Of a DNA stretch of 39,434 nucleotides, positions 4,032-20,697 are shown piece after piece; positions within the stretch are counted from its first letter, which is position 1, and every line of letters begins with the position of its first letter. A program made the translations under genes and the position numbers. The stretch comes from a virus, in IMG/VR virus record IMGVR_UViG_3300037247_000643, positions 1-39,434 of that record. One strand, 5' to 3'. The notes under the pieces are model-generated. The model did no database searches and was not told where the DNA came from. It worked only from the letters and a program-made list of their open reading frames with translations.

Positions 4032-4269
4032 CGTAACCAACGGTGTGGCAACATTGGCCAAGGGCTTTGCTGAGGCTGAGCGCAAACGCTTTAGTTCCTA
4101 TTTTCCAAAAGGCATGGTAGAGCATGACGAGCTGCGCAGCATAGTGCATGATGATGACGTGCTGGCATTATTGCTCAAGCTGAAGGGGCTGGAAAGGTGG
4201 AAGGCGGAAGTGCAGCACCTTTTCAGGGACATCATTTTTGGCGAGCAGGAAATAAGAGACGGGGAGTAG
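4015..4269 (+). CDS. Hypothetical helical protein, 84 aa
   Basis: Mostly helical and charged (AEAERKRFSSYFPKGM, DDDVLALLLKLKGLERWKAE). ATG 4015 overlaps the previous gene by 17 bases. Its last ten bases, including the stop TAG, lie inside the tRNA gene that follows, so processing the tRNA from a co-transcript would clip this message at its end. Family not recognised. Confidence 0.6.
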   Translation: MADPIDVTNGVATLAKGFAEAERKRFSSYFPKGMVEHDELRSIVHDDDVLALLLKLKGLERWKAEVQHLFRDIIFGEQEIRDGE

Positions 4270-4335
4270 TCTAGCCAGGCCCAAGGCGCTTGCTTTGGAA
4301 GCAAGAAACCGTAGGTTCGAATCCTACCTTCCCGA
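4260..4335 (+). tRNA. tRNA-Pro (anticodon UGG)
   Basis: A complete 76-base cloverleaf. The acceptor stem CGGGGAG/CTTCCCG (one G-U pair) has C1-G72 as is usual for bacterial tRNA-Pro. The D stem is GTCT/AGGC with GG in the loop. The anticodon stem CTTGC/GCAAG encloses TTTGGAA with anticodon TGG, the variable loop is five bases, and the T stem GTAGG/CCTAC encloses TTCGAAT. Discriminator base A; the CCA tail is not encoded. It would read CCA and, by wobble, other Pro codons. It overlaps the preceding gene's stop codon and ends 20 bases before the RtcB start. Confidence 0.93.
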
Positions 4336-4355: not shown

Positions 4356-5669
4356 ATGGATACCAACCAACTTTTGCACGAGCATGGCATATCATCTAAG
4401 ACGGTTGACAATTACCCGGCTATTGCCAAGCATGCTGCGGAGCTAGCATCAGACGGCTTTGGGGTCAAGCATATTATTGAGCATATTCGAAGCCAATACG
4501 TTGTAAATGACAAAGTGACCATGGTTGCATCCAGAGACTACATGGATTGCGTTGTGTTTGGTAAGGAACTTATAGAGCAGAATGCTATTGAGCAGATGGA
4601 CACGGTCATGCGCATTCCACCTGCTGTGGCCGGGGCGCTAATGCCGGATGCGCACTTGGGCTATGGCATGCCTATTGGTGGTGTGGTGGCTTTGGAGAAT
4701 GCAGTGAGCCCCAACTTTGTGGGCTTTGACATTGCATGCCGTATGAAGCTGACCCTGTTTGATTTAGAGGTAGATGCTTTTGATGAGGACAGTTGGTTGG
4801 CGGGGCTGCGCAAGGTTACTAACTTTGGTGTGGGTGGGCGCTTTGCTAGGGAGCAGCGTAGGGACCATGTTGTTATGCAGGACGAGCGGTGGGGGCGGCT
4901 AGGCATTGATAAGGATAAAGGCTGGGCGCAGCTAGGTACATCGGGCAAGGGTAATCACTTTGCTGACATTGTGCTGACGGATTATATTAGCAATGCGGGC
5001 CAAGCACGTAGATACTTAGGACTGCTTACCCATTCAGGCTCGAGGGGGTCGGGTTATGGGGTTGCCAGGAAGTATGGCAAGCTAGCCATTGCAGAGACAG
5101 ACAAGATAGCCTACAACATACCCAAGGGCTATGCTTGGCTGCGCATGGACACCGATCCAGGGCGGGAGTATTGGGCCGCTATGAGTTTGATGGGTGATTA
5201 TGCACAAGCCAATCACGATGTAATACACCGGGAGTTCATGTGGGCTATGTGCCTGAAACCTGCGCTAACGTATGACAACCATCACAACTTTGCGTGGCAG
5301 GAGGGCGATCAATATATCCATCGCAAGGGTGCCACACCTGCAGCCCGTAGTGCATATGGTATCATACCTGGCACCAGTGGCAGCTACTCATATGTAGTGC
5401 AGGGGCTGGGCAATCCGGCTAGCCTAATGTCTGCACCGCATGGAGCGGGCAGGCCATACTCACGCACAGAGGCCAAGGGGCGGCATAATGTGGAGCAGTT
5501 CAAAGACCACATGGACGAGTTTGGTACCAGGCACAAAGGCATAACGGGCGATGAGACCGTGTTTGCTTATAAGGATATTGAAGCGGTAATGGCTGCATCG
5601 CATGCACTGGTGACACCGTGGCTGCAGCTCAAGCCACTGGTTGTGTTGATGGGTGGTGGGCAGCGTTAG
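4356..5669 (+). CDS. rtcB: RtcB-type RNA ligase
   Basis: GTP- and Mn-dependent ligase that joins 2',3'-cyclic phosphate or 3'-phosphate ends to 5'-OH ends, the ends left by anticodon nucleases. The 437-residue protein keeps the key features: PDAHLGYGMPIGG with Asp98, DIACRM with Cys128, GKGNHFAD with His201, THSGSRGSG with His226, NHHNF around 309-311, HRKGATPA, and PHGAGR with His362, matching the guanylylated histidine. DIACRM replaces the usual DIGCGM, but the Cys ligand is kept. ATG 4356 follows GAAGGGAG (4343-4350); the longer reading from 4290 starts inside the tRNA. No archease gene was seen. It directly follows the tRNA-Pro gene and shares the region with an Rnl2-like ligase and RlaP. 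Confidence 0.95.
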   Translation: MDTNQLLHEHGISSKTVDNYPAIAKHAAELASDGFGVKHIIEHIRSQYVVNDKVTMVASRDYMDCVVFGKELIEQNAIEQMDTVMRIPPAVAGALMPDAHLGYGMPIGGVVALENAVSPNFVGFDIACRMKLTLFDLEVDAFDEDSWLAGLRKVTNFGVGGRFAREQRRDHVVMQDERWGRLGIDKDKGWAQLGTSGKGNHFADIVLTDYISNAGQARRYLGLLTHSGSRGSGYGVARKYGKLAIAETDKIAYNIPKGYAWLRMDTDPGREYWAAMSLMGDYAQANHDVIHREFMWAMCLKPALTYDNHHNFAWQEGDQYIHRKGATPAARSAYGIIPGTSGSYSYVVQGLGNPASLMSAPHGAGRPYSRTEAKGRHNVEQFKDHMDEFGTRHKGITGDETVFAYKDIEAVMAASHALVTPWLQLKPLVVLMGGGQR

Positions 5670-12859: not shown

Positions 12860-12888
12860 TTGCAAAACTGACCACCATCCACTATAAT
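12860..12888 (+). promoter_or_regulatory. Sigma-70-type promoter of leader A
   Basis: TTGCAA at 12860-12865, 17 bases, TATAAT at 12883-12888: near-consensus in both boxes. CCACCA/TGGTGG arms flank the -10 region. It transcribes leader A and the first structural block. Same architecture as 17954-17982. Confidence 0.85.
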
Positions 12889-12894
12889 TTGAAC

Positions 12895-12980
12895 GTGGTG
12901 GCACCCTAGCGGGCAATGCTGCTGCAGGGCAACGTGAAACAAAGACACACGGGCCAATTGGCTTGTGTGTTTTTTATTTC
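12895..12980 (+). ncRNA. Leader RNA A: structured 5' leader ending in an intrinsic terminator
   Basis: From about seven bases after the -10 to the T tract. It holds CCC-TAGC-GGG, a second small hairpin around TGCTGCTGCAGGGCA, a single-stranded GTGAAAC segment and a terminator hairpin ACACAC...GTGTGT with T6. A near copy precedes the capsid gene at 17985-18080; conserved stretches include CACCCTA, GGGCAATGC and GTGAAACA, with base changes that keep the stems. It could be a cis-acting attenuator or antiterminator leader, or a released small RNA. No known riboswitch class fits by eye. Confidence 0.6.
12940..12976 (+). terminator. Intrinsic terminator inside leader A
   Basis: ACACAC-GG-GCC, loop AATT, GGC-TT-GTGTGT, then T run. 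Eleven pairs including two G-U. It stands between the promoter and the gene at 12996, whose SD (CGGAGGA) follows a few bases later, so expression of the operon requires read-through. Confidence 0.8.
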
Positions 12981-12995
12981 CGGAGGAAAAGCAAA

Positions 12996-13628
12996 ATGGA
13001 AAGATCACTAAGTATGGAAGGCGGCTTGGTTGCAAAGAAGATTTCTGCACCGGGGCCGGGCCTAGCCTGGCACTTGCGCAACCGTGCTCGCAAAGCTTAT
13101 TTGTGGGGCCGTATGGTCAATGCTGCAGCGAGACGCTTTAGTAAGTTGACCGGCGTACCTACTATGATTGCTGAACTTGAGGCCCGAAAGATTTGTGCCG
13201 ATGGTAGGGTCATCAATTATGGCACAGTGGCATACCGGGTAGTCACGGATGCTGGTGTTGCCTATATGGTAGATGACTGGGATGGGGGGGCCGACGACAT
13301 TGACGAACTTGACTTCCATGGCTGCGGTACGGGGGTTGGTGGTGAGGCGGTTGGCGATACAGCCCTTGGAGCAGAAAGCACGACAATCCTAAACCCAGAT
13401 AGCACTAGGGCATCAGGCACAAACACACAACCTGCTGCTAATCAGTTTAGAACCATTGTCACACTTACCTTTGATGGAGCAGGCGCTATTACCGAGCATG
13501 GTATTTTCGACCAGGCAGCCACAGGCGGTGGTACGCTTTGGGACCGTAGTGTGTTTTCTGCTATCAACGTAGCCAATGGTGACAGCATTGAATTTACATA
13601 CACACTTACCATCACGAGTGGAGGCTAA
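12996..13628 (+). CDS. Phage structural protein (tail/fibre-associated, conserved)
   Basis: 210 residues; ATG 12996 is behind CGGAGGAAAA. The C-terminal 130 residues follow a pattern common in phage virion proteins: FHGCGTGVGGEAVGDTAL, a Asn-Pro-Asp-Ser-Thr-Arg turn, then ITEHGIFDQAATGGG and INVANGDSIEFTYTLTI. Homologues of this type usually lie among tail or fibre genes. The N-terminal 60 residues are basic and helical. It heads the first structural block behind leader A. Exact place in the virion unknown. Confidence 0.65.
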   Translation: MERSLSMEGGLVAKKISAPGPGLAWHLRNRARKAYLWGRMVNAAARRFSKLTGVPTMIAELEARKICADGRVINYGTVAYRVVTDAGVAYMVDDWDGGADDIDELDFHGCGTGVGGEAVGDTALGAESTTILNPDSTRASGTNTQPAANQFRTIVTLTFDGAGAITEHGIFDQAATGGGTLWDRSVFSAINVANGDSIEFTYTLTITSGG

Positions 13629-15404: not shown

Positions 15405-16835
15405 ATGATCACCTATCAGATCAAGAAAGCGACGGCCGACGTCTCTGTAGTCATCCGTATTATTGATTCCACCGATGGCACGCCTGAGACTGGCGTGGTC
15501 TTTGACACCGCAGGCATCGATATGGAGTATAGGCGTGAGGGCGCTGTGGTGGTGAGCATCACTGAGGCCACTCTAGCTGCGCTCACTACAGCTCATACGG
15601 CTGGGGGATTCCTGCACATTGGGAATGGCTATTATCGATTGGATCTTCCGGATGCGGCTTGCGCCTCCGGCGTGGATGGCGTAGTCATTGAGGGCACTGT
15701 TACAGGCATGGTGGTAATCGGCTGCTATATTCAGCTCAATGCAATTGCCGATCAGGTTCACGATGCGGCTATCGAGGATCATGACACGCAGGGGACCGCA
15801 GGTTGGGCGATAGCACTTGCCGTCTACGCCGGTCCTGACGGTCCAGGCATATACATCGACAGCGGGGCGGCGAATACAAACACCGTCGTCGGCACCGATG
15901 GTACTGAGATCAATCCTGTCTCGACATTTGTAGCTGCTCGCACGTTGGCTGATGCGCTGGGCCTAAAGATTTACTATCTCGAAGGCAACTCCGACATCAC
16001 ACTTGCGGCTACACATCTTGATTGGGAGTTCATAGGCATTGGTAGTGTGTCCGATAATATCGTCAATCTTGGAAGCCAAGATGCGAGCCGGTCCTTGTTC
16101 CGAAATCTGACACTCGAAGGTACGCAGGGTGGATCAGATAGGATCACCGCACGTGACTGTGCACTTCAAGATCCGGGAGCAGGTGCTACGACACTTCACA
16201 TCTTTGCTGAGAGATGCGGATTCGTTGACGAGATTGAGGTAGACGCAAGCAACGACAATGTGTTCGACCAGTGCTTCTCGTTGGTTGCGGGCACCGCTAC
16301 CCCTGCAATTATTGCAACGGGTGCAGCCGGTACAATATCGGTGAGGCACTACAGCGGCGGGCTGGAATTCAAGTCCCTATCAGCTTCGCACAATGTTACA
16401 TGGGAGGGCATCGGGCAGGTCATCTTCAATGCCAACTGCAACGTAAATGCGAACGTCAGTGTGCGTGGTATCGGTTCGATCACCGATAACACGGCTGGAA
16501 TGGTATCACTAACCGAGACTTCATTGGTCAATATGACCAAGATCAATGCAGTAGCTAGATTGATCAATCCTCAGAAGAACTTGGCCTTCAGCAATATCAC
16601 CTTCGAGATGTATGACAGTACGAACCACAATCCATCTACGGGCTTGACCGTGACTGGCGAGCGGTCAATCGATGGCGGAGCCTTCGCCGCAGTGAGCGGG
16701 GCAATTGCAGAGATCAGCGATGGCACTTACCAGTTTGATGCTGTTGCAGCAGATATGAATGGGGATTTGATTGTGTTCAGATTCTCGGCTGCGAGCACAG
16801 ATGACACCTTTGTCCACGTCAAAACAGCAGCCTAA
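15405..16835 (+). CDS. Putative tail fibre / beta-helix virion protein
   Basis: 476 residues, start directly after the previous stop behind CGGAGG. The N-terminal ~110 residues (DTAGIDMEYRREGA, SITEATLAALTTAHTAGGFL, GYYRLDLPDAA, VVIGCYIQL) match an adaptor-like domain seen in many phage and prophage structural proteins. Residues ~170-380 look like a right-handed beta-helix (regular short strands, NLTLEGTQGG, ARDCALQDPG), typical of fibres and tailspikes. The last ~90 residues form a small beta domain (YDSTNHNPSTGLTVTGERSI). Probably a receptor-binding protein; no catalytic residues can be assigned. Confidence 0.65.
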   Translation: MITYQIKKATADVSVVIRIIDSTDGTPETGVVFDTAGIDMEYRREGAVVVSITEATLAALTTAHTAGGFLHIGNGYYRLDLPDAACASGVDGVVIEGTVTGMVVIGCYIQLNAIADQVHDAAIEDHDTQGTAGWAIALAVYAGPDGPGIYIDSGAANTNTVVGTDGTEINPVSTFVAARTLADALGLKIYYLEGNSDITLAATHLDWEFIGIGSVSDNIVNLGSQDASRSLFRNLTLEGTQGGSDRITARDCALQDPGAGATTLHIFAERCGFVDEIEVDASNDNVFDQCFSLVAGTATPAIIATGAAGTISVRHYSGGLEFKSLSASHNVTWEGIGQVIFNANCNVNANVSVRGIGSITDNTAGMVSLTETSLVNMTKINAVARLINPQKNLAFSNITFEMYDSTNHNPSTGLTVTGERSIDGGAFAAVSGAIAEISDGTYQFDAVAADMNGDLIVFRFSAASTDDTFVHVKTAA

Positions 16836-17644
16836 TGAACTGGATCCGATATTCCATCGGGAACACAAGGGCTCAGGCAACAATGCCACTCAGCATTGGA
16901 GCTCCACAGGTACATGCATCCGGTTCGTCGGGTCCGATATTGCAGGCAATAGCTGGGGTGTTGGCATCCGGTGACCTTGTTGGCATCCAAACACGCAAAA
17001 TAGGCACTGCTTTTACCGGAGCTTTGACATTTGCTGGGGCCTTAGTGCGGCAGACTGTCACAGCTTTCACCGGGGGGATAACACCAAGCGGAACACTATC
17101 TTCCCGCAAGGTGATATTGCAAGCTATAGTTGGGGCACTGACGTTTGCTGGGGCCTTAGCAGGCAAGGGCCTAAAGAGCCTGGCTGGGGGTATTACACCT
17201 GCTGGTAGCCTTACCAATGTTACAGGGACGGCCTTTGTTGGGGTGCTAACATTCGTAGGTGTTCCAGCTAACATGGCCGGGCTTGTATTTACCGGAACAC
17301 TGACAACTGCTGGTGGGCTGGTTGGGAAGGCGGGCAAGGTATTAGCTGGTAGCTTGAGTGCGGCTGGGGCACTGGTTCGTCAGGCACAAAAAATATTAGC
17401 TGCAATCCTAACGACGTCGGCAATCATGGCAGCGGTAAGATCTGGAGCCGCTGCTTTTACCCAAGCAATAACAGGGGCACTTAGCTTTGTTGGGGGTATA
17501 ACTGCGAAACGGGTGTCTTTATATGTGACTGTGCTGCTGTATAAAATCATTGGTAAGAATGTGGGCATAAGCAGGACACCGAGTTCGGATGTTGGCGTGA
17601 AACTAACAATAGCTGAGGACATTGATTTGGAGGATGCACCATGA
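16835..17644 (+). CDS. Tandem-repeat protein (about 18-residue GALTFAGAL-type repeats)
   Basis: 269 residues. Residues about 38-240 are made of roughly ten repeats of 18-22 residues, such as RQTVTAFTGGITPSGTLS, GKGLKSLAGGITPAGSLT and GKAGKVLAGSLSAAGALV: a basic linker, then a small Gly/Ala/Thr strand pair. Repeats like this occur in phage structural loci and would form a solenoid or fibre. The start overlaps the preceding stop (TAATG); ATG 16883 (MPLSIGAP) is an alternative. The end is more ordinary (AKRVSLYVTVLLYKIIGK, then an acidic tail). Function unknown. Confidence 0.6.
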   Translation: MNWIRYSIGNTRAQATMPLSIGAPQVHASGSSGPILQAIAGVLASGDLVGIQTRKIGTAFTGALTFAGALVRQTVTAFTGGITPSGTLSSRKVILQAIVGALTFAGALAGKGLKSLAGGITPAGSLTNVTGTAFVGVLTFVGVPANMAGLVFTGTLTTAGGLVGKAGKVLAGSLSAAGALVRQAQKILAAILTTSAIMAAVRSGAAAFTQAITGALSFVGGITAKRVSLYVTVLLYKIIGKNVGISRTPSSDVGVKLTIAEDIDLEDAP

Positions 17645-17953: not shown

Positions 17954-17982
17954 TTGCATAACTGACTGTAATCGGCTATACT
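17954..17982 (+). promoter_or_regulatory. Sigma-70-type promoter of leader B
   Basis: TTGCAT at 17954-17959, 17 bases, TATACT at 17977-17982. AACTG and CAGTT arms flank the -10 region, as CCACCA/TGGTGG do in the leader A promoter. The upstream AGCTTGCA and the ACTGAC spacer start are shared with the first copy. Confidence 0.82.
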
Positions 17983-17988
17983 CAGTGC

Positions 17989-18080
17989 AGTTGGCAGCAC
18001 CCTACCAGGGCAATGCGGCCACTAGGCGGCGTGAAACATAGACACACGGGCCATAAGCGGGCCTGTGTGTTTTTTATTTC
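17989..18080 (+). ncRNA. Leader RNA B: second copy of the structured leader
   Basis: Homologous to leader A (12895-12980). It keeps CACCCTA, GGGCAATGC, GTGAAACA and AGACACACGGGCCA, while the hairpin sequences change in a paired way (CCCT-ACC-AGGG here, CCC-TAGC-GGG there). It ends in a terminator hairpin and T6. It lies between a strong promoter and the protease-capsid gene, so the RNA probably governs capsid-operon transcription in cis or is released as a small RNA. Confidence 0.6.
18038..18076 (+). terminator. Intrinsic terminator inside leader B
   Basis: ACACAC-G-GGCC, loop ATAAGCG, GGCC-T-GTGTGT, then T run: eleven pairs. It differs from the leader A hairpin in the loop and inner pairs but keeps the stem, and again sits just ahead of the gene's SD (AGGAGG at 18092-18097). 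Confidence 0.82.
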
Positions 18081-18102
18081 TCTAACGGGCCAGGAGGCGA
18101 GT

Positions 18103-20697
18103 TTGAAAAAGACGGAGGCCAATATTGATGACATAAGAGGCGCAATACGCCAAGCGTTTGACGAGCAGTTTTTGAAACAGCCGGATGGTAAGTGGCGGGA
18201 TGGTTGGGTTACGGATGTGCATGTATCCCTAGAGGGCGAACAAGACGACCATATTATTGCTTACTATGATGGCGATGCCTACAAAATTGCATACACGGTT
18301 GAGGGCGATAAGGAGGAAGATGAAAGCTATACCTTTGAAGCCCAATTGGACTGGGTAAAAGTCAAGAAAGCCAAGCCGGAATGGATAGCAGTGCAAGAGT
18401 CCATTTTTGCCAGCATTGGTAATATGCGTGAGGCCAAGGCGGGCGTTGCCAAAGGCACTGAATGGGAAATAACTGTTATTGGGCCGGAGGGCAATGATGG
18501 GCTGGTAGAAGTAGACGGTAAGCTGCACATACGCAGCAAAAACCAGCGGCTATACCTGGCAGAAGGTTTGCAAGAATCTGCACATCTGTTTGATGACATA
18601 AAGGTATACGATAATCATCTCACAGACGAGGAGTTTGAAAAGCGGCAAGGCATGCGTAGCGTGGTTACTGAATGGTTGGGCGTGCTTACCGGCGTGAAGT
18701 GGGACGAGGCAGCTAGCGCAATCGTAGGTACATTGAAGTTGGTTGATGCCAAGCTACGTGAGAAGTTGGTGGCTGCTAAGGAAGCTAATGTGTTGCACAC
18801 CATTGGCCTATCTATTGATGCAACTGGTATTGGTGTGCAGAAGGAAATCAATGGCACGGTAATGGACGTGGTTGAGAAGATTACCAGGGCCATATCTGTA
18901 GACGTAGTGGCTGACCCAGCAGCAGGCGGGCGGCTAATAAAGTTGCTGGCGGCAGAAAAGCTAGCTGCGGAGGAAAACATGGAAAGATCGGAAATAGTTG
19001 CATTGCTTGAGGAACTCTTGGGCGATAAGTTTGCGGAGTGGAGCGAGAATATCGCTGCACGTACCGACGAACAGCTCAAGGCGTTGGTTGAGCAATTGCA
19101 AGGCGAGCCGGGAGACGAAAATGATCCCGATGGGAACGAACCGGCAGATGATCCGGTGGAGCCTGTAGCAGACCCGGTTGAGGCAGACGCTGTAACTGAA
19201 GCGGCATCCTTGGTTGGCGAAGCACAGAAACTCTTGGACGAGGCAAAGCGGGAACGTGAGCTAGCTGCCTGTGGCACAATGCTGCATACGCAGTTGGGCG
19301 AGAGCGGACTGCCTGGGCCTGTGCGCTCCAAGATTACTGACAGCTTTGAGAACAAAGTGTTCACTGCTGAGGAACTCGAAACCGAAATCGAAAGCTACCG
19401 CAAGATTTTTGTGGGTATGGCTGACGATGGAGTGCGGGTGCCTGAGTCGTATACGGGCAAGCAAATTAGCGTTGGGTTGAACGAAGCTGAAAAGGCTGAG
19501 TTGGCCTTCCTGCGTTTGGTTGCTGGTAAAACCGAGTTCGACAATATTGTTGGAAGCGATAAAGACGTCAAGGACTATGGCGTGCGAGCGATTGAGGCAT
19601 ACCAAAAGGCTGGAAAGCCTGTGCTGCCTCGAGCTACCCGCTTGAGCGAATGGTACTACGACGTTAGTGGTGACTTGGATGCGGCATATGATGGCTTTGC
19701 TGGTGCAAACCGAAGGCTATCAGAAGCTACTGGTACCACGGCCAGCTTGACCAGCATTGTGAAAAATACCGTGAACTTGCTCTTGGCGAACGACTATGCC
19801 AAGCGGCAGCAGTGGTGGGAACCAATCGTGAAGCAGGAAGACGTGGACACGCTTGACCAGGCTACATTGGTGCGTGTGCATGGTTTGAATACGTTGAGCC
19901 GGGTGCAGGAAGGTGGCACCTATCAGGAGCTAACGTGGGCAGACGAAGAAGAAACGGCTAGCTATATCAAGAAAGGTAACTTCATTGGTATAACCTTGGA
20001 GACCTTCTTGCAGGACAAGCTTGCAACATTGCGGACCATTCCTAATCGCTTGAGCGTTTCCTGGTACAACACCGTTTCTTCGTTGGTTAGTGCGGTGTTT
20101 ACGACCAACACAGCGGCTGGGCCGGTGCTTGGTGATTCCGGAGCACTGTTCAATGCCACAGCCTTGACGACCACAGGCGGCCATGCCAACCTGGGGACCA
20201 CTGCACTTAGCTATGCTGAGTTCAACGTAGCTAAACGTGCTATGCAGAAGCAGACCGACCAAGTGCTGGGCGTTGGGCAGCGATTGCTCCTCAGACCTCG
20301 CTACTTGCTTATTCCGGTTGACCTGGAGAACACTGGAGATGAAATACGTGACTCCGAGTTGGTGCCTGGTGAGAGTGGCGGCGCAACAACTGGCGGGCAG
20401 ATCCAAACCGTCAACTCACTGCGGGGAACGTTTGATATTATCCCCGTGCCAGACTGGACCGATACAGACAATTGGGCGCTAGTTGCAGACCCGGTGCTGA
20501 ACCCGGCCATTTGGCTCATTTGGTTGCGTGGGCGACGCACGCCTGAGATCTATTCCGCTGAGGACGAGCGCAGCGGGGCAATGTTTACCAATGACACACT
20601 TCGATTCAAGGTGCGGCAGTTCGGGTTTGAATTTAGCTCCACCTACCAGTGTGCGCCAGTGAGTGACTTCCGAGCACTCTATAAGGAGAACGTCTAA
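18103..20697 (+). CDS. Fused prohead protease, scaffold and major capsid protein
   Basis: 864 residues from TTG 18103 with AGGAGG five bases upstream; an ATG at 18013 in frame lies inside the leader terminator. Residues 1-110 form an N-terminal domain found on some prohead proteases. Residues 120-285 carry the protease, with VYDNHLT (His172), HTIGLSIDA (Ser237) and AISVDVVADPAAGG. Residues 293-430 are an acidic coiled-coil scaffold-like region. The remainder is an HK97-type capsid protein (VQEGGTYQELTWADEEETAS, then LRPRYLLIPVDLE and PEIYSAEDERSG). After assembly the protease would cut the fusion. ATG 18979 with its own SD probably also yields the scaffold-capsid part alone. Confidence 0.85.
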   Translation: MKKTEANIDDIRGAIRQAFDEQFLKQPDGKWRDGWVTDVHVSLEGEQDDHIIAYYDGDAYKIAYTVEGDKEEDESYTFEAQLDWVKVKKAKPEWIAVQESIFASIGNMREAKAGVAKGTEWEITVIGPEGNDGLVEVDGKLHIRSKNQRLYLAEGLQESAHLFDDIKVYDNHLTDEEFEKRQGMRSVVTEWLGVLTGVKWDEAASAIVGTLKLVDAKLREKLVAAKEANVLHTIGLSIDATGIGVQKEINGTVMDVVEKITRAISVDVVADPAAGGRLIKLLAAEKLAAEENMERSEIVALLEELLGDKFAEWSENIAARTDEQLKALVEQLQGEPGDENDPDGNEPADDPVEPVADPVEADAVTEAASLVGEAQKLLDEAKRERELAACGTMLHTQLGESGLPGPVRSKITDSFENKVFTAEELETEIESYRKIFVGMADDGVRVPESYTGKQISVGLNEAEKAELAFLRLVAGKTEFDNIVGSDKDVKDYGVRAIEAYQKAGKPVLPRATRLSEWYYDVSGDLDAAYDGFAGANRRLSEATGTTASLTSIVKNTVNLLLANDYAKRQQWWEPIVKQEDVDTLDQATLVRVHGLNTLSRVQEGGTYQELTWADEEETASYIKKGNFIGITLETFLQDKLATLRTIPNRLSVSWYNTVSSLVSAVFTTNTAAGPVLGDSGALFNATALTTTGGHANLGTTALSYAEFNVAKRAMQKQTDQVLGVGQRLLLRPRYLLIPVDLENTGDEIRDSELVPGESGGATTGGQIQTVNSLRGTFDIIPVPDWTDTDNWALVADPVLNPAIWLIWLRGRRTPEIYSAEDERSGAMFTNDTLRFKVRQFGFEFSSTYQCAPVSDFRALYKENV
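18979..20697 (+). CDS. Probable internal in-frame product: scaffold-major capsid protein
   Basis: ATG 18979 (Met293 of the fusion) is preceded by CGGAGGA at 18968-18974, an SD stronger than that of many separate genes here. It sits exactly at the junction between protease and scaffold domains. It would give a 572-residue scaffold-capsid protein without protease, comparable to lambda C/Nu3, where an internal start makes scaffold within the protease gene. This would solve the stoichiometry problem of a one-to-one protease-capsid fusion. Start inferred from sequence only. Confidence 0.6.
   Translation: MERSEIVALLEELLGDKFAEWSENIAARTDEQLKALVEQLQGEPGDENDPDGNEPADDPVEPVADPVEADAVTEAASLVGEAQKLLDEAKRERELAACGTMLHTQLGESGLPGPVRSKITDSFENKVFTAEELETEIESYRKIFVGMADDGVRVPESYTGKQISVGLNEAEKAELAFLRLVAGKTEFDNIVGSDKDVKDYGVRAIEAYQKAGKPVLPRATRLSEWYYDVSGDLDAAYDGFAGANRRLSEATGTTASLTSIVKNTVNLLLANDYAKRQQWWEPIVKQEDVDTLDQATLVRVHGLNTLSRVQEGGTYQELTWADEEETASYIKKGNFIGITLETFLQDKLATLRTIPNRLSVSWYNTVSSLVSAVFTTNTAAGPVLGDSGALFNATALTTTGGHANLGTTALSYAEFNVAKRAMQKQTDQVLGVGQRLLLRPRYLLIPVDLENTGDEIRDSELVPGESGGATTGGQIQTVNSLRGTFDIIPVPDWTDTDNWALVADPVLNPAIWLIWLRGRRTPEIYSAEDERSGAMFTNDTLRFKVRQFGFEFSSTYQCAPVSDFRALYKENV

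Follow-up and report, generated by a model that had tools for sequence, protein, structure and literature searches.

The sequence analysed here is a viral contig, 39,434 bases long (hereafter, "the window" denotes this whole stretch), for which a search at the DNA level found no near relatives among named phages. An earlier note, made from the letters alone, had described one of its genes as a single open reading frame (ORF) for protease, acidic scaffold and capsid. This description holds: the frame is open over 864 codons, the C-terminal part matches Phage_capsid_4, and the protease is recognised by its fold. The gene is thus tripartite in the sense of an uninterrupted ORF with an N-terminal protease, a middle region and a C-terminal HK97-type capsid domain, and a match to phrog_29592 spans residues 145-861 of its product (E 3e-57). 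Positions are collected in Table 1. Between an in-frame ATG further upstream (18013) and the TTG start stands a terminator-like hairpin at 18040-18072.

Table 1. The fusion gene, its two putative starts and related features of the window
Feature	Positions	Strand	Remarks
Start region of upstream gene, near-copy of internal start	12981..13006	+	local score 32
Shine-Dalgarno AGGAGG of full-length start	18092..18097	+	from sequence; duplex -10.3 kcal/mol
Protease-scaffold-capsid fusion gene	18103..20697	+	864 aa, TTG start, no internal stop
Protease domain, T4 gp21/herpesvirus protease fold	18454..18978	+	predicted model, pLDDT 80
Internal Shine-Dalgarno CGGAGGA	18968..18974	+	duplex -9.5 kcal/mol; conserved among relatives
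Internal in-frame ATG (codon 293)	18979..18981	+	conserved junction ATG; surrounding 50 nt fold weakly
Predicted nested product, scaffold and capsid, 572 aa	18979..20697	+	
Acidic scaffold/linker region	18979..19737 (approximate end)	+	from alignment; predicted helical, low confidence
HK97-type major capsid domain	19738..20682	+	PF25209, residues 546-860, E 4.5e-22

The capsid domain, which makes up the C-terminal 315 residues, scores 80 bits against Phage_capsid_4, for which the cut-off is 27. Two NCBIfam families of protease-capsid fusions are matched by this capsid part alone and below their cut-offs, namely NF045541 (108.8 bits versus 525) and the ClpP-like, Gifsy-2 type NF045540 (105.2 bits versus 475). 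The scaffold/linker region is poorly conserved across the aligned relatives, and an apparent insert in it, an E3_binding domain (PF02817, best E 2.6e-07), was seen in 2 of 14 aligned members.

The protease part matches phrog_15531, "head maturation protease" (E 1.2e-5), and has no match in Pfam. Peptidase_S78 (PF04586) gave no match in the window at E<=1 and does not occur among the family hits of those 14 relatives that were aligned (E<=0.01); CLP_protease likewise gave no match in the window protein. A search of the alignment against the sequences of solved structures returned nothing beyond weak capsid matches (E 0.02-0.04). The full-length structure prediction, with a mean pLDDT of 48 and Foldseek hits mostly to MCE-domain proteins, was set aside for the protease in favor of a model of the domain alone, built from 14 sequences. 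Compared with solved structures, this model is closest to the T4 prohead protease gp21 (5jbl; VIA Z 8.9, rmsd 2.9 over 121 residues). Herpesvirus proteases follow at Z 5.2-7.3, interleaved with MCE-domain chains; because these unrelated chains reach Z 6.3, the clear fold match of the predicted domain is T4 gp21, which places it in the T4 gp21/herpesvirus fold at the level of a model. His172 and Ser237 are invariant in all 14 aligned members and are candidate catalytic residues.

At the boundary between protease and scaffold, the earlier note had proposed an internal start at ATG 18979, with CGGAGGA "five bases upstream"; this spacing applies to the GGAGG core (a gap of 5 nt), but CGGAGGA itself stands 4 nt from the ATG. 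The accompanying remark that this Shine-Dalgarno (SD) site is better than many separate gene starts was borne out, with a duplex energy of -9.5 kcal/mol against a median of -7.0 kcal/mol; of 51 starts picked mechanically from the genes of the window, 8 equal or exceed it by anti-SD duplex. ATG 18979 has the strongest duplex of any in-frame ATG in the ORF and ranks second, behind TTG 18103, when in-frame GTG and TTG codons are included. In the window as a whole, -9.5 kcal/mol is reached by 16 of 904 ATGs on the + strand and by 1 of 600 on the - strand. Duplex strength alone is not decisive, because three out-of-frame ATGs within the ORF do as well or better (two at -10.2 and -10.0, and a third that ties). 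The region is also, as had been noticed, a near-copy of the start at 12996: the pair has a local alignment score of 32, versus a maximum of 26 among 1275 pairs of window starts. CGGAGGAAAA (12981-12990) reappears at 18968-18977 and ATGGAAAGATC (12996-13006) at 18979-18989, with GCAAA as the spacer between the two at the 12996 start and C at the 18979 start. The description of the gene at 12996 as structural calls for a small correction, its best match being phrog_5417, of unknown function.

If ribosomes initiate internally at 18979, selection at the nucleotide level should preserve an in-frame SD-ATG at the junction. We therefore turn to relatives of the gene, of which the single protein retrieved 8 loci, a four-row alignment 18 and a 14-row alignment 80, in overlapping sets. 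The search patterns were protease or capsid peptides, with one scaffold peptide in the single-protein search, and none spans the junction Met. A scan of genome contigs with an alignment returned one relative, L026 (JAJUJL010000013.1), on a 148-kb contig of a Chloroflexota MAG, which hints at the group to which the hosts of these phages belong; the same kind of scan with the single protein found nothing. Four of 62 new loci were not counted as fused: L230 and L242 run into a contig end, L232 has a frame break and L238 is split. The break in L232 falls near the end of the capsid part, and its intact 5' part alone was read, without repair, and added back to the count. The resulting 73 fused genes reduce to 53 representatives at <80% identity, 14 of them from the first 20 loci.

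Within the first four lineages, Met293 is the sole invariant residue between A283 and A311, and the DNA that precedes it reads CGGAGGA, AGGAGGT, AGAGGAGA or GAGGT. The junction ATG is present in all of the first 14 representatives, whose predicted nested products measure 528-616 aa. In 52 of 53 lineages, an SD-like site and, behind it, an in-frame ATG lie no more than 50 codons past the protease motif; the junction ATG is here by definition the ATG with the best SD in the region, a selection built into these counts, and the lineages are related by descent and so are not independent events. In 42 of 53 the junction region ranks in the top 5% when compared with the other 50-codon windows of the same gene. 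With a fixed cut-off (-6.5 kcal/mol, 30 codons), the junction SD-ATG is found in 44 of 53 lineages; the same cut-off gives 0-6 positives at each of 17 other offsets in the same genes (51-53 genes each) and, at the junction itself, 3 of 53 in frame +1 and 0 of 53 in frame +2. The one exception among the 53, L266, keeps the SD (AAGGAGT) at the junction and has ATA in place of ATG, possibly a non-canonical start, a loss or a sequencing error. Mae-JY22, the nearest named phage (25.5% identity), has an ATG at codon 274 with GGAG upstream (-6.4 kcal/mol) and is a weak case, its junction not being open (MFE -13.0).

The same signal could be read as a purine-rich pause site, or as a peptide or cleavage motif in a Glu-rich linker before the conserved Met, given that Glu-Glu dipeptides yield SD-like codons; we consider this highly unlikely. 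The ATG sits at the spacing of a start codon, the signal is absent from the other two frames, and the two main codon registers of the SD encode different peptides. Among 52 representatives (L266, lacking the ATG, is left out here and in the folding counts), the SD is read as xxG GAG in 38, GGA Gxx in 12 and xGG AGx in 1, with no core in 1, and the encoded residues vary (e.g., Glu-Val, Lys-Glu, Gly-Ala, Gly-Gly). As the SD lies in different codon registers, it is the nucleotide signal that is kept rather than the peptide. Synonymous codon shuffling of the window family points the same way for the set as a whole: the observed SD mean is -8.59 versus -6.01, and 0 of 200 shuffled sets were as strong. 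Gene by gene, the SD exceeds its synonymous expectation at p<0.05 in just 2 of 52. When the per-gene tests were combined, none of three groups (the window family and the two further fusion groups described below) was significant (Fisher p 0.27, 0.996 and 0.22); tested as sets, the window family and the ClpP group reach significance and the NF045541 group does not. Codon-column conservation was not used as evidence, since in two groups the gapped alignments offered too few columns for scoring.

Reduced RNA structure is typical of true translation starts. In the window, the 50 nt around the internal ATG fold at -3.8 kcal/mol, versus -8.1 kcal/mol at the TTG start. In 42 of 52 representatives the corresponding 50 nt belong to the 10% of their gene where folding is weakest, and GC around the junction ATG (0.44 versus 0.58 for the gene) is lower than in the own gene in 51 of 52. 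The opening is strictly local, which again speaks against a pause or peptide motif: the mean MFE of the window family is -5.1 kcal/mol at the ATG versus -10.5 to -17.3 kcal/mol at 12 flanking positions.

L238 (3914-6493) is the sole relative among the loci examined in which protease and scaffold-capsid are separate ORFs. Its protease ORF ends at TAG 4718-4720, and 15 bases past it ATG 4736, preceded by ACGGAGGT with SD GGAGGT, opens a scaffold-capsid ORF of 586 aa in the same frame. Because this split falls ~60-70 codons downstream of where the junction normally is, and could be the product of one misread base in one contig, we count it as supporting evidence only. That such a relative exists, so that fusion or fission occurs, also lends something to another reading, in which the SD and ATG are remnants, now unused, of a once-separate scaffold-capsid gene. 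The gene order of HK97, where the major capsid protein (MCP) gene directly follows the protease gene according to a published account (PMC8508860), fits this reading as well. An unused signal would decay, whereas this one is kept in 52 of 53 lineages, down to ~30% protein identity with the window and within a linker whose peptide is unconserved, and a fossil start is accordingly very improbable.

Two further groups of fusion genes were compared. The NF045541 group, annotated as "prohead protease/major capsid protein fusion", comprised 87 loci and 36 representatives (including phages S1, RcDormio, LPPA33 and PY223), and the ClpP-type group 87 loci and 15 representatives (Gifsy-2, Fels-1, F10, mEp043, mEp460, Pmp14, Pben1 and contigs). 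These are the best 80 of 399 and the best 80 of at least 600 relatives, respectively, plus 7 named phages each, and are biased to the close relatives of the query. A junction SD-ATG is found in 34 of 36 representatives of the NF045541 group and in all 14 of the ClpP-type representatives (of 15) with a located ATG. At other offsets, 0-2 of 36 are positive in the former, except for one offset with 14 of 36, and 0-5 of 14 in the latter. The mean MFE at the start is -4.1 in the NF045541 group and -4.8 in the ClpP group, versus -8.6 to -15.4 elsewhere. Paracoccus phage Pben1 is without the conserved Met of the ClpP group and has a nearby ATG at codon 223 (AAAGGG, MFE -5.1) that may be a substitute start. 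Two observations in these groups would suit a peptide motif: in the NF045541 group SD strength does not exceed synonymous expectation (398 of 400 shuffled sets were as good), because Glu-Glu codons readily encode an SD, and the ClpP group also conserves a peptide, EEFxxMP, around its start.

The proteases of these groups differ. A ClpP protease is confirmed by both Pfam and NCBIfam in the ClpP group (PF00574 in Gifsy-2), and RcDormio carries Peptidase_S78 (Pfam). Homology between the ClpP-type and S78-type fusions is confined to the part from about the junction onward: ClpP-type members match the fusion model of the other group from residue 236 (Gifsy-2), 223 (mEp043) and 232 (F10), and members of the S78-type side match that of the ClpP-type group from residue 193 (LPPA33, S1) and 210 (RcDormio). 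Since the match begins near the junction, unrelated proteases precede one shared scaffold-capsid unit, and the predicted internal start is, judging from these alignments, at or near the boundary between the two modules.

The internal initiation proposed at 18979 is thus supported by conservation across the lineages, clean controls for position and frame, open RNA and varied SD registers. We conclude that one messenger very probably yields two nested proteins, the 864-aa protease fusion and, by internal initiation, a 572-aa scaffold-capsid protein, a conclusion drawn from sequence. Ribosomes starting at TTG 18103 would make the full protease-scaffold-capsid protein, and those recruited by the separate SD of ATG 18979 the shorter one. 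The two forms would share the scaffold and capsid domains and so could co-assemble, the short form as the bulk subunit with an HK97-like scaffold-capsid layout and the long form as a minor subunit carrying a limited number of protease domains into the prohead, after which the protease would clear away both itself and the scaffold, in the manner of HK97 and lambda. The weaker TTG codon (SD -10.3, versus -9.5 for the ATG) and the looser RNA structure at the internal site agree with the excess of the short product that the earlier note had proposed and are no proof of it. HK97-type proteases are generally known to cut near domain junctions, and the short protein might instead come solely from autocleavage of the full-length fusion, with the internal start unimportant; cleavage may also occur, but as the sole source it leaves the kept nucleotide-level SD-ATG and its open structure unexplained, and we hold it to be highly improbable.

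The comparison with lambda C/Nu3 drawn in the earlier note is apt, as an in-frame internal SD-start is present at the protease-scaffold junction. In lambda, surplus scaffold comes from a start nested in frame behind the protease (reportedly the work of Shaw and Murialdo in 1980); the capsid protein E is a separate gene there, whereas the nested product predicted in the window extends through the capsid domain. The protease domain of the window, as modelled, has the fold of the herpesvirus proteases, which makes herpesvirus UL26/UL26.5 a second analogue: the virus makes a protease-scaffold and, through a nested transcript, a nested scaffold, with the capsid protein again separate. The layout of the 572-aa product resembles the delta domain and capsid of HK97 gp5, and in HK97 the protease (gp4) is a separate gene. 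Closer in gene organization is Gifsy-2, for which a 2010 paper by Effantin, said to be in Virology (402:355), reportedly described protease, scaffold and HK97-fold capsid as encoded by a single gene. Gifsy-2 and NF045540 share this arrangement with the window, and Gifsy-2 has a junction SD-ATG at codon 221 (GAGGAG); its protease is ClpP-type, unlike the T4 gp21/herpesvirus fold predicted for the window. The NF045541 fusions (S1, RcDormio, LPPA33) have the same order, a related capsid domain and a junction SD-ATG, and differ in that the window matches the family by its capsid part alone, below cut-off. For gp5 of Pseudomonas phage MD8/F10, whose protease is ClpP-type, unlike that of the window, protease, scaffold and MCP have been proposed to be a single gene (PMC8508860); in the available part of that paper an internal start is unmentioned, and the words "internal" and "start codon" are both absent. 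Protease and capsid are also fused in Arthrobacter phages of clusters AM, AU and AN (PMC5513430), whose likeness to the window is taken from that description. No description of an internal start in protease-capsid fusions was recognised in the literature searched, a partial coverage with many subscription papers outside it.

Single-gene capsids pose a puzzle, in that a shell of hundreds of subunits must avoid hundreds of proteases, and a nested start is a simple answer. We lean towards the view that such a start is general, and so far unremarked, in these capsids; that unrelated proteases (ClpP-type, T4 gp21/herpes-type) have been swapped before one conserved scaffold-capsid unit at the boundary marked by this start; and that the relative use of the two starts on a single mRNA sets the protease dose of the shell, the protease entering as a minor form of the capsid subunit. 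If so, database records of such genes miss what is probably their most abundant product, capsid and prohead proteomes need to be searched with the internal N-terminus, and the single-gene capsids of phages join lambda C/Nu3 and herpesvirus UL26/UL26.5 as instances of a recurrent solution.

Several other features of the window were seen along the way. An element present in two copies lies at 17954-18079, directly before the capsid fusion gene, and at 12860-12979, directly before the gene at 12996. It begins with a promoter-like site, for which TTGCAT-17-TATACT (read by eye) and TTGCAA-17-TATAAT were noted; a leader of ~60-100 nt with CGTGAAACA and a strong terminator hairpin with T-run follow, and the two copies are 83% identical over 46 nt. 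The element matched no Rfam family; an attenuator, an antitermination leader and a small RNA are candidates. Visual inspection showed similar layouts of promoter, leader, CGTGAAAC and terminator ahead of the fusion gene in L001, L026, L212 and L214, and terminator-like hairpins were found in 23 of 49 testable relatives versus 52 of 318 random segments. Elsewhere, four imperfect copies of a TTTACC-containing 28-mer lie at 17002-17473, within the ORF at 16835-17644, and a tRNA gene is located at 4260-4335 (Rfam RF00005, 61.1 bits).
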